The translations under genes were made by a program, and so were the position numbers. Shown here one piece after another: positions 15,731 through 23,124 of a DNA stretch of 27,347 nucleotides. The notes under the pieces were generated by a model that worked only from the letters and a program-made list of their open reading frames with translations, was not told the DNA's origin and made no database searches. Position 1 is the first letter of the stretch. Each line of letters starts with the position of its first letter. Origin of the DNA: a candidate division KSB1 bacterium (GTDB lineage Bacteria > Zhuqueibacterota > JdFR-76 > DREG01); the NCBI GenBank assembly GCA_022566355.1, contig JADFJB010000056.1, positions 1 to 27,347 on the forward strand, given 5' to 3'.

Positions 15731-15753
15731 AGTGATTGACCGAAAACTCATCA
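15731..15753 (+). repeat. Solo copy of the outer arm of the 22.8-kb element
   Basis: AGTGATTGACCGAAAACTCA plus TCA matches 22835-22857 at 21 of 23 positions. The same sequence, inverted and slightly changed, closes the other end of that element at 22996-23014. Here only one arm is recognisable. Confidence 0.65.
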
Positions 15754-15788
15754 AAATAAGACGACATTTGCCATTCAGGGGAATCTAT

Positions 15789-18073: not shown

Positions 18074-20005
18074 CTAAGTGGCAACCCTTACACGCCGGTT
18101 AAGAAGACCAGCGCTGATAAAAACAAGTACCCCAAGAACTTGTAACCAAATCAAAGCGCCGCCAGATTTAGTAAGTACCAAAACTAACGCGGTTACTAGC
18201 AAAACGATCCTCATCCATAACACTACCTTGGTAAACCAGAAGCCAGTTATTGCAGCGGCAAGGGCAACAATGCCTGTAAGTGTAATGAGGATATTTATCA
18301 TTATAGGTATGAATTCAGCGGCGCTGCCGTCTGCCGATAATAGCAATAATTCGGGCCGTAAAACAAAAGCGTAGGGGAGGGCAAAGCCAATTAGTGCGAA
18401 ACGGAAAGCAGCAAAAACACTTGGCATGATACGTGAGCCTGCTATCGCTGCTGCGGTGTATGCCGCCAAAGCTACAGGCGGAGTAACCATAGACATCATA
18501 CCAAAATAAAAAATGAAGAGGTGAGCGGCAAGAGGGACAATTCCTAAATCGCTCAATATGGGACCGACTAAAGTTGCCATCAACAAGTAGCACACTGCGG
18601 ATGGCAAACCCATTCCCAGGATGATAGTAGAGACCATGAGTAGAATAAGAGCCAGGATCAAATTATCCTGGGCTAAAGGCAATATGACTCCGGGTAGTTT
18701 GGCGCCAATGCCGGTCAAAGTTACAACGCCGAGGATTACACCGACACATGATGCGGCAGCAATCAATGAAATCCCTCCGTGGGCGGCATTTTGCAGGGAA
18801 GACAGAACTCCACGGATGCCAATACGCGTTTCTTTATGGAAGAAACTCAGAATCAGAACAAGTATTAAACTTAAACTTACTGCCCGAAATGGCGTGTATC
18901 CAATGACTAAAAATAAGATGAGTGTAGTAAAGGCAGCAAAAAATAGAACTCCCTTGAAATTATTTAGCGGTTGGGTTTCTTTTTGTTCTGTGACACCAGA
19001 AGATGCGCCAATCTTTTTGGCCTGAAAATGTACGATTAGCAAGAGAGCAGTGTAATACAGCAGGGCGGGGATCAATGCCGCTTTGATGATCTGCAGATAA
19101 GTAACAGGCGGCTCGATGAGCTCGAGCATCATATATGCGCCGGCGCCCATAATGGGCGGCATCAATGCACCCCCGGAACTTGCAGCGGCTTCCACTCCGG
19201 CTGCAGTCTCCGGTTTGAAGCCCGAACTTTTCATCATAGGAATCGTGAATGTCCCGGTGGTTGCAGTGTTGGCTACAGCGCTTCCGGATAGAGAACCCAT
19301 TATTCCGCTGCTGATCACGGCAACTTTAGCAGGTCCCCCGACGCTTTTCCGAAACAGGTTGCGGGTAAATTGAATGATGAAACCAGTTGCCCCGGTTTTT
19401 TCTAAAAATGCACCGAATAAAACAAACAGAAATACATAAGTAAACATCACTTTCAAAGCAATCCCAAAAACTCCCTGGCTGTGCAAAAAGGTTTGGCTGA
19501 CAATGCGCTCCCAGGAATAGCCCCGATGTGGAAACAACCAATCCGGCATGGCGGAACCGAAAGCAGCGTACATGATGAATACGAAAGATAAAAGGGGTAG
19601 AGTTATGCCAATCGCCCGCCGTGTCCCTTCCAAGACCAGGAGAAGACCCAGAAGTCCCATGACATAATCCATTGTTTGTTCAATCCCCGCACGGTTGCCA
19701 AGCTGCTGATTATCAATCCAGAACAATTTGAATATCGGTTCCGATTGGATGAAAATATAACCAAAAGAAATGACCACAGCGCCGACGAAAATGATATCCA
19801 ATACCTGGAATACAAATTTATTTTCTTGTTGTTTACTAATCGGATATTTCAGGTATACCAAAATCAATCCCAGCATCGCAAATATTGCCAGCTGAGATTG
19901 TGGAGAAAGTTGAGGATAATTTACCTCAACCAATATAAATATGCTGAGTACAACAGCAAGAGCATTAAAGGAAGATTTTTTAAAGCGCTGAAGACGGTCG
20001 ATCAT
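18074..20005 (-). CDS. TRAP transporter fused permease (TAXI type, DctQM fusion)
   Basis: The ATG at 20005 overlaps the upstream TGA as ATGA, so this start is preferred over the TTG at 20029. The product is 643 residues with some 16 or more membrane segments. The N-terminal quarter stands for the small DctQ subunit, and the rest is the large DctM domain. Signatures include GSLSGSAVANTATTGTFTIP with GFKPETAAGVEAAASSGGALMPPIMGAGAY, and later GMGLPSAVCYLLMATLVGP and FYFGMMSMVTPPVALAAYTAAAIAG. It uses a cation gradient (usually Na+) to import an organic anion handed over by the binding protein encoded directly upstream. The 4-bp overlap implies translational coupling. Substrate unknown; characterised TAXI systems take up glutamate or other organic acids. 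Confidence 0.93.
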   Translation of the reverse strand: MIDRLQRFKKSSFNALAVVLSIFILVEVNYPQLSPQSQLAIFAMLGLILVYLKYPISKQQENKFVFQVLDIIFVGAVVISFGYIFIQSEPIFKLFWIDNQQLGNRAGIEQTMDYVMGLLGLLLVLEGTRRAIGITLPLLSFVFIMYAAFGSAMPDWLFPHRGYSWERIVSQTFLHSQGVFGIALKVMFTYVFLFVLFGAFLEKTGATGFIIQFTRNLFRKSVGGPAKVAVISSGIMGSLSGSAVANTATTGTFTIPMMKSSGFKPETAAGVEAAASSGGALMPPIMGAGAYMMLELIEPPVTYLQIIKAALIPALLYYTALLLIVHFQAKKIGASSGVTEQKETQPLNNFKGVLFFAAFTTLILFLVIGYTPFRAVSLSLILVLILSFFHKETRIGIRGVLSSLQNAAHGGISLIAAASCVGVILGVVTLTGIGAKLPGVILPLAQDNLILALILLMVSTIILGMGLPSAVCYLLMATLVGPILSDLGIVPLAAHLFIFYFGMMSMVTPPVALAAYTAAAIAGSRIMPSVFAAFRFALIGFALPYAFVLRPELLLLSADGSAAEFIPIMINILITLTGIVALAAAITGFWFTKVVLWMRIVLLVTALVLVLTKSGGALIWLQVLGVLVFISAGLLNRRVRVAT

Positions 20006-21018
20006 TGTGAAAGGTTTTGGTCGGGCCAAATGCCGATTTCTTTGTAATAACGAATTGCGCCGGTATGGAATGGCGTGCCGGTATCCTTTATTACATTCTT
20101 AGGATTGATCGCTTTGCCGGCTGGGTGTCTCTTTACGACTTCAGCACGATTCTCATAGATGATCTTAGTGAAATTATAAACTGTTTCCTCAGAAACGGCA
20201 TCCGAAGTGATCAAATGCATTGAACCCACATTCATACCTTGATAATCCTGGTCCTGGCCACGGTAGGTTCCGGCAGGTATTATGGCCGGAAAGAAAAAAG
20301 GATAGTTGTCATATAGGTCTTTTTTCGCATTTTCCTCAAATGGAATAAAATAAATATTCTGGGAAGCACAGGCCTGGGTAATAGAGGCTGTCGGTATCGC
20401 TCCGCCCAAGAATGCCGCAACCGCCGCTCCATCTGCCAGCATGTCTACCGAACCAGCTTGTGTGTTGTTCAACGGGCTGAAATCTTCATATGCAACCCCG
20501 TGTGCCTTCAAAATAGGCTTCAAAAAATAATCGAATCCCGCCCCGGCAGGACCAACAACAACTCGTTTACCTTTAAGGTCGGATATGTTTTTTACGTCTG
20601 AAGATTTGGATGTAATAAAAAGTGCGATATTAGGCGCTAATGTCATTACAGTCCGAATGGGGTATTCCTTTTCCCATGCTCCTTCACCGCGTACTGCAAA
20701 ATAAGAAATAGCTGCATTGGCAAGAGCAAACTCCAATTCACCGCTAGCCAAACGTCGAATATTTTCCTGGGTGCCTTTGGTCGCTTCCGCCGTAATTTGC
20801 CATTGTAGCTCACCTGAATTTGTAGTGGCTACGTCGGCGATAGCACCACCAACCACAAAAAACGCACCACCGGGAGGCGCTGTGCCTACACTCAGAAAAC
20901 GGCTCTCTTTGCCACCCTTTTCGGATGTACATGCGACTAAAAATAATAGCGAAAAAATGAAAAAAATACCTATCCAAAAGAGTTTATTATCGACTTTCTT
21001 TGAACCCAAACAACTCAT
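20002..21018 (-). CDS. TAXI-family TRAP solute-binding lipoprotein
   Basis: A 338-residue extracytoplasmic binding protein. The signal peptide ends in the lipobox LVAC (C30), so it is anchored as a lipoprotein rather than free in the periplasm. SVGTAPPGGAFFVVGGAIADV, EATKGTQENIRRLASGELEFALAN and DLKGKRVVVGPAGAG are the hallmark segments of the TAXI (TRAP-associated extracytoplasmic immunogenic) family. The start is ATG with GGAGG 5 bp upstream. It overlaps the permease start by 4 bp, forming a two-gene operon read leftward. It should pick up an organic solute and pass it to the fused permease. Lipid anchoring is compatible with the Gram-negative FCB setting. Confidence 0.93.
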   Translation of the reverse strand: MSCLGSKKVDNKLFWIGIFFIFSLLFLVACTSEKGGKESRFLSVGTAPPGGAFFVVGGAIADVATTNSGELQWQITAEATKGTQENIRRLASGELEFALANAAISYFAVRGEGAWEKEYPIRTVMTLAPNIALFITSKSSDVKNISDLKGKRVVVGPAGAGFDYFLKPILKAHGVAYEDFSPLNNTQAGSVDMLADGAAVAAFLGGAIPTASITQACASQNIYFIPFEENAKKDLYDNYPFFFPAIIPAGTYRGQDQDYQGMNVGSMHLITSDAVSEETVYNFTKIIYENRAEVVKRHPAGKAINPKNVIKDTGTPFHTGAIRYYKEIGIWPDQNLSQ

Positions 21019-21915: not shown

Positions 21916-22512
21916 CTACTCAGAGATTTCAATTTTTCTTTCTGGATTGTCTTCATTTTCAGTCCATCGACTGGGATTTTGTTGTATATAATTTCTGACA
22001 TGCCATAATTCTTTTTCATTTCTAATGATTCTGTCATAATACCTGGGTTGCCAGGTAAAGAACTGTGCAGATAATTTTCTATTTACAAATTTCGTAACGG
22101 CAGATTTAAAGGATCTAATCACGGATGGTAATGACCCACGTTTCGGAGAAATACGGGAGAATTGTGCGGTATTTGTTATGGAGACGTTGCATGCAACGTC
22201 TCCACGATTGGAATTTACCATATTCTCATCATCGATATGATCAATAACAATAATGCCATGTACGTGATTGGGCATTATGATGCATTCATCCAATTTTATA
22301 AAAGGAAAATGCCTGGGTATTTCCAGCCAACAATATTCGGCAATATTTCCAATTGCTGATAAAATAACCTTGCCATGTTCTATTTGACCCAATACACATT
22401 CACGGTTCTTGACGCAGATTGTGACAAAATAATTTCCATTTCGTGAATAATCCCAACTATGCAACCGAGTAGATGGAATACGGTATTTATTTTTGAATAG
22501 GTTGTCAGTCAT
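21916..22512 (-). CDS. REP-associated tyrosine transposase (RAYT, IS200-like Y1 family)
   Basis: A 198-residue Y1 transposase. The HUH metal motif is in IMPNHVHGIIVI (H83, H85). The catalytic tyrosine is Y158 or Y159 in FTWQPRYYDRIIRN, followed by the typical tail HVRNYIQQNPSRW. The N-terminus (RIPSTRLHSWDYSRNGNYFVTIC) is standard for this clade. RAYTs are single-copy, domesticated-looking relatives of IS200/IS605 transposases that cut single-stranded REP hairpins. Between the HUH motif and the tyrosine helix lies a variable loop (about residues 91-122). In it, codons 104-111 (GDVACNVS) are an exact 24-bp palindrome. No flanking inverted ends specific to this gene were found. The frame is intact. 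Confidence 0.93.
   Translation of the reverse strand: MTDNLFKNKYRIPSTRLHSWDYSRNGNYFVTICVKNRECVLGQIEHGKVILSAIGNIAEYCWLEIPRHFPFIKLDECIIMPNHVHGIIVIDHIDDENMVNSNRGDVACNVSITNTAQFSRISPKRGSLPSVIRSFKSAVTKFVNRKLSAQFFTWQPRYYDRIIRNEKELWHVRNYIQQNPSRWTENEDNPERKIEISE
22180..22203. repeat. Perfect 24-bp palindrome inside the RAYT gene
   Basis: The half-site GGAGACGTTGCA is followed directly by its reverse complement TGCAACGTCTCC, without loop or mismatch. It starts and ends on codon boundaries of the RAYT gene (codons 104-111). The sequence resembles intergenic palindromes known from other bacteria with RAYTs. Confidence 0.85.
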
Positions 22513-23124
22513 TCATAAAACCATGTAAAATATTATCTATATCTATGGTAATCGCTATACCCCTGTTACTTAATCGAGCCCGTTATATTTTAACTTTATA
22601 AACCCTGACCATTTCCTCTACATCTTTTTTATTCTTAATACTCATCAGATAAAAATATCCATGTTTAAGGCATCATTAGTAAAACCATTAAAGAATACTA
22701 CAAAAGTCACGACAGAATAATTGCAGCTAGTTGCTTTTAAAATCAATCCAATATAGTTCACTTTAATTCCCATTCTTCAGATGTGTTTTTAGTAATAGGG
22801 GTTTAACACACCCCTCTACCCACATAGACTAACTAGTGTCTGACCGAAAACTCATCATTTGTCATTTCGACGAAGCGAAGCTGAGGAGAAATCTTTTTCA
22901 CGAAATAATGCTAAGATATTAAAATTATAGAAACTTATAAGATTTCTCTCCCGCCGTGTGGCGGGATCGAAATGACAATGAGTGGTATGGGCAAAGAGTT
23001 TTCGTTCAGATACTAACTATAAACTATACAATCTTCAACAGCACACATGTCAAGAACTTTATATACTGTTTACAACTATTGCTCAAACAATGACTCAAGA
23101 CAGTAATAAATCTTAAGTTTCAAT
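22513..23124. other. Gene-free stretch holding a nested inverted-repeat element
   Basis: No credible gene in 612 bp. The first 320 bp are AT-rich without recognisable structure. The element at 22835-23014 fills most of the remainder. The last 110 bp before the DUF5916-like remnant are featureless. Confidence 0.65.
22835..23014. repeat. Nested inverted-repeat element (MITE- or REP-like, about 180 bp)
   Basis: Outer arms: AGTGTCTGACCGAAAACTC (22835-22853) and GAGTTTTCGTTCAGATACT (22996-23014) pair at 17 of 19 positions. Inner arms: GTCATTTCGA (22861-22870) with TCGAAATGAC (22967-22976), and GAGAAATCTT (22886-22895) with AAGATTTCTC (22939-22948), are perfect. Near the right inner arm sits a GC hairpin CCCGCC-GTGT-GGCGGG (22950-22965). 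The inner part matches the widespread GTCATTTCGACGAAGC...-type dispersed repeat. No coding capacity. Confidence 0.75.

Follow-up and report, generated by a model that had tools for sequence, protein, structure and literature searches.

Why should a perfect palindrome be translated, with the reading frame left open, inside the gene of an enzyme that acts on hairpins? The TnpA_REP (RAYT) family binds and cuts hairpins tagged with GTAG (PMC8266576), and one of its members lies in the DNA analysed here, a 27,347-nucleotide stretch from a candidate division KSB1 bacterium (the window). Palindrome scanning and folding place a perfect 24-bp palindrome, GGAGACGTTGCATGCAACGTCTCC, at 22180-22203 within a gene on the minus strand. 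The sequence-only reading had reported an exact palindrome within a RAYT at these sites, which we confirm, and the palindrome even grows by one pair to a perfect 26 bp (22179-22204); the runner-up among the perfect palindromes of the window has 18 bp. Equally correct was its translation in frame as GDVACNVS, codons 104-111 of the open reading frame at 21916-22512 (minus strand). Folded singly, each DNA strand of the palindrome gives a hairpin of 11 bp capped by a 4-nt loop; its energy is about -11.8 kcal/mol (z about -6), a stability that none of the shuffles reached.

Judged from the open reading frame, a family model and structure comparison, 21916-22512 (minus strand) encodes an intact RAYT of 198 amino acids. 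Its product matches NF047646 (REP_Tyr_transpos) with an E value of 2e-16 and 60 bits, under the model cut-off of 80, and scores 19.8 against Pfam Y1_Tnp, for which the cut-off is 23. The HUH motif PNHVH (residues 81-85; 22258-22272, minus strand) and the single catalytic tyrosine of a Y1 HUH enzyme, Y175 in YIQQNP (21988-21990, minus strand), occupy invariant alignment columns, as do W154-Q155 among relatives. In the AlphaFold model (mean pLDDT 82) they fall on a strand, residues 83-90, and a helix, residues 166-178, and the closest solved fold is 4er8, E. coli TnpA_REP with its REP hairpin. A variable loop, residues 91-127 (22132-22242, minus strand), links the HUH strand to the helix that follows (residues 128-147). 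Internally, pLDDT drops below 50 only at residues 104-111, exactly those encoded by the palindrome, so the earlier placement of GDVACNVS in a loop between the HUH motif and the catalytic-tyrosine helix stands. By the signature motifs in the subclass table of PMC6006769 (NH[IFV]H, WQ and YIxNNP), on which this placement rests, the protein belongs to subclass 2.4; NHVH and WQ agree, the in-frame insertion in the loop agrees, and YIQQNP differs at one position from YIxNNP, which is also the consensus among 39 relatives. Elsewhere in the window, inspection by eye of the translations at 18074-21018 (minus strand) suggests a fused TRAP permease and, after it, a solute receptor of the TAXI type.

The palindrome is the core of a 28-nt double-foot REP, sense strand GTGGAGACGTTGCATGCAACGTCTCCAT, at 22178-22205 (minus strand), which pairs through 13 perfect pairs and a terminal G.T. 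A GTGG foot (GT[AG]G motif, as defined in PMC6006769) stands on the coding strand at 22202-22205 (minus strand). The opposite strand has ATGG, so that the canonical foot is kept on the coding strand only, and the 3' end, CCAT, is one base off the C[TC]AC of the double foot described for subclass 2.4 in PMC6006769; in-gene REPs of relatives have both feet. The window's REP is identical at 25 of 28 positions to the commonest form, GTAGAGACGTTGCATGCAACGTCTCTAC, which is found beside and inside the RAYT genes of other genomes in the same phylum (L006, L009, L030 and L037). By sequence comparison the palindrome is a REP, through homology rather than copy number. A REP is expected to have many extragenic copies, and this one is single: the 24-mer is absent outside the gene, which answers the genome search proposed earlier, and no second copy of its 20-mer core was found at up to two mismatches in the 4.62-Mb genome (98.5% complete). 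No strict double-foot REP of any kind was found in that genome, no other hairpin of at least 10 bp within 1.5 kb on each side of the RAYT, and no Rfam family at gathering threshold around the gene. RAYT genes are usually, but not universally, flanked by REPs, and such REPs are present at the orthologous locus L006. A 160-bp imperfect inverted repeat at 22836-22995 (TTTGTCATTTCGACGAAGCGAAG...) has 23 matches in the genome, six of them long; it is MITE-like and unrelated to the REP, and its left end resembles 15732-15754.

Is a REP in this loop peculiar to the window? We collected 128 non-identical RAYT genes from many phyla whose frame is open from the HUH to the W motif. With the alignment as query, a profile search of genome contigs found RAYTs, whereas a single-protein query found none. 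The foot GTRGRGRC (sense strand) occurs in the loop of 92 of the 128, against 0 of 128 equal-length coding controls; as the relatives were found through the window's protein and one alignment, these 72% are no unbiased estimate for the family. Perfect loop hairpins of at least 12 bp are present in 66 of 128 genes, compared with 2 of 128 equal-length stretches before the HUH motif and 0 of 640 dinucleotide shuffles. A count of paired versus unpaired substitutions is biased, the loops having been selected as hairpins, and it was not used as proof; it was replaced by a test in which loops are chosen by their left foot alone. Here a 13-bp stem with at most one mismatch was seen in 68 of the 92 foot-bearing loops, and random right arms never gave fewer than four mismatches. 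Many of the remaining loops look less like decayed copies than like another type of REP, one with a loop. The palindromes vary widely from gene to gene, and about a quarter of the loops lack the foot. The alignment of homologues proposed earlier hence finds a REP in many loops and none in some, and the suggestion of a fixed loop cassette survives in part: the insertion is recurrent, but its sequence, frame and exact position vary. In five loops (L076, L118, L169, L174 and L207) REP-derived peptides are tandemly repeated (e.g., VKTQNIAGTNVKTQNIAGTNVETQNIASL in L076), as if an in-gene REP had been amplified and then partly eroded. In four others (L065, L073, L094 and L114) the palindrome runs well past the REP, with flanking codons paired too and arms of up to 24 bp (e.g., TATGGATTCTGTAGGGGCG... 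in L065).

We then compared in-gene REPs with those around the same genes. When no more than one mismatch is allowed, the middle 16 nt of the loop REP recur in the gene's own flanks in 24 of 75 cases and in other genes' flanks in 19 of 1500. A second measure gave 25 of 75 against 36 of 2000 (Fisher p 4e-22, only a guide, the sequences being kin). The same REP both flanks and sits inside orthologous RAYTs, for example L006, L009 and L030. Among paralogous RAYTs within one genome, the in-gene REPs differ in 8 of 9 pairs, and therefore do not stem from one genomic pool. In-gene REPs resemble the flanking REPs of their own gene, not those of other RAYTs.

The copy in the window is not a recent arrival. 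Two relatives, L006 (G040; 62% amino acid identity) and L172 (G001; same family, gene truncated where its contig ends), carry the same REP, read in an identical frame and set in the same context, AATTC..ATCGT-REP. On this comparison of sequences, at least two relatives share the window's REP by inheritance. The genome has no pool of dispersed REPs and the insertion is common to relatives, so that recent insertion from such a pool is ruled out here. Both relatives read GTAG...GCCTCTAC and the window GTGG...GTCTCCAT; relative to them, both members of a pair at the foot differ in the window's lineage (A-T to G-C), and they have an A.C mismatch where the window pairs fully. A single case of paired change is no proof of selection.

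We consider it very likely that a double-foot REP entered the loop between the HUH motif and the tyrosine of this subclass 2.4 RAYT in an ancestor, was tolerated and inherited, and that the in-gene copy is the sole one left. Entry would have been into a variable loop in a frame that brought no stop codon. The REP probably came from the RAYT itself, acting on single-stranded DNA where its gene lies, because an in-gene REP resembles the REPs that flank the same gene and does not resemble those beside other RAYTs. The insertion would have been near-neutral for the enzyme since it merely lengthens a disordered surface loop, and it would then have passed down as part of the gene. In the window's genome, flanking and dispersed copies would have been lost or never been present. 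The earlier proposal that a REP had entered its own transposase harmlessly is supported accordingly by the foot in 92 of 128 homologues, usually cognate or formerly cognate, by the disordered loop and by the intact enzyme.

Alternatively, selection may be maintaining the in-gene REP as an element of DNA or RNA, which we regard as possible but unlikely. It could serve as a self-carried substrate or seed that ties the enzyme to its cognate REP, e.g., when the gene moves into a new genome, or as a hairpin in the gene or the mRNA through which the RAYT curbs its own expression. A purely neutral in-gene REP should decay after its REP family has been lost, yet stems with at most one mismatch are found in 43 of 52 genes lacking a flanking copy of the left arm, as against 25 of 40 with one. 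The stems are thus well paired where flanking copies are absent, which speaks for selection and against tolerance alone. So do the paired change of the window's copy relative to L006 and L172, made with no template copy in the genome, and another in the Nodosilinea pair L097/L098. The GTGG foot is kept on the coding strand, and the mRNA segment with the palindrome folds at z -3.5. On the other side, in-gene REPs are eroded in the loops of otherwise open genes (L196, L198, L200 and L208), which argues that the in-gene REP is not strictly required; L006 and L172 carry the A.C mismatch, the footless quarter of loops does without, and counts of paired changes carry the bias described above. A positive role, whether as self-seed or in autoregulation, may exist; the sequence-only reading had raised a self-targeting or autoregulatory site as one of its three explanations.

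Copy number bears on the same choice. The other RAYT of the window's genome (C3:42595-43102; L005 900-1110) also has an in-gene REP, GTAGGCGACGCATGCGTCGCCCCTAC, likewise single-copy. Set against its counterpart in L085, this REP is two G's short, and the reading frame shifts at the same place; the second RAYT is probably dead, broken at its own REP. Changes in a REP are then not always harmless, which is a point against simple tolerance. Among 31 other genomes, picked for in-gene REPs without close flanking copies, five (G049, G100, G105, G109 and G114) have one strict double-foot site only, which their in-gene REP fits, and others have up to 86; "only copy" here refers to the strict pattern, L023 (G049) having an imperfect flanking relative. 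That the in-gene REP is so often the only copy, in both RAYTs of the window's genome and in those 5 of 31, favors selection. A broader form of the idea, that in this RAYT subclass the in-gene REP might be a maintained part of the element, with enzyme and substrate inseparable and dispersed REPs its secondary, transient offspring, seems to us improbable to much the same degree.

Far less probable is that GDVACNVS is conserved as a protein element, with the palindrome as a by-product. RDVACN[VA]S does recur in the same frame in several RAYTs (L006, L045, L046 and L074). However, one REP has two readings, VETLHATSL in L009, L030, L093 and L099 and RDVACNVST in L006, L045, L046 and the window. Since one stretch of DNA is used in two frames, it is the DNA and not the peptide that is conserved, and on this ground we reject the peptide. 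Across the 92 genes the foot lies in frame 0 in 71 and in frame 1 in 21; the third frame, in which TAG would be read as a codon, never occurs, as any open reading frame demands. Codons rather than residues are conserved: 8 of 9 REP codons share their third position with L006, compared with 44% in the rest of the gene (Fisher p 0.013). Other palindromes encode unrelated peptides in other genes, and the segment is predicted to be disordered. The sequence-only reading had named, as what would refute it, absence of the 24-mer elsewhere in the genome together with residues conserved through varied, palindrome-breaking codons; the absence is real, but the varied codons are not.

Least probable of all is a chance palindrome or an unrelated operator site, which we reject: a 4.6-Mb genome should contain about 0.4 perfect palindromes of 24 bp, but the window only about 0.002, the sequence is of the REP type found in and beside other RAYTs, and loop hairpins far exceed their controls (66 against 2 of 128).

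REPs inside RAYT genes are already known. For TnpA_Y1 subclass 2.4 (RAYT group 4 of Bertels), Quentin et al. 2018 (PMC6006769) describe REPs inserted within tnpA_REP with the frame intact, generally between the HuH and Y motifs, and suggest that activity is little affected. The window's gene is like those in its in-frame REP and double foot, in its NHVH, WQ and YIxxNP signatures and in a variable-length insertion at the same place. It differs from the subclass as described there in lacking flanking REPs, in an in-gene REP that is single-copy in its genome, in a Y motif that is not exactly YIxNNP and in a host from the phylum of candidate division KSB1. GTAG/CGTC REPs also lie in frame inside unbroken genes (Di Nocera et al. 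2013, PMC3733652), but those hosts are unrelated genes (uvrA, dnaE2 and others) and the REPs abundant, whereas here the host is the RAYT. E. coli TnpA_REP (4er8) shares the fold and the enzyme family; it is of subclass 2.2, with no loop insertion and with bulged, single-foot REPs outside the gene. In the open-licence literature we found no controlled comparison that matches in-gene to flanking REPs gene by gene, no two-frame use of one REP, no single-copy in-gene REPs and no functional test of in-gene REPs.

These observations bear on the origin of REPs and on what keeps them matched to their RAYT. Genes with a cognate REP in their reading frame, often its sole genomic copy, are natural one-gene systems that pass on enzyme and substrate as a unit. 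Should the hairpin within the gene be a seed or a control site, it would explain the co-evolution of enzyme and REP. If it is neither, it would be a clear case of a selfish repeat tolerated within its own maker.
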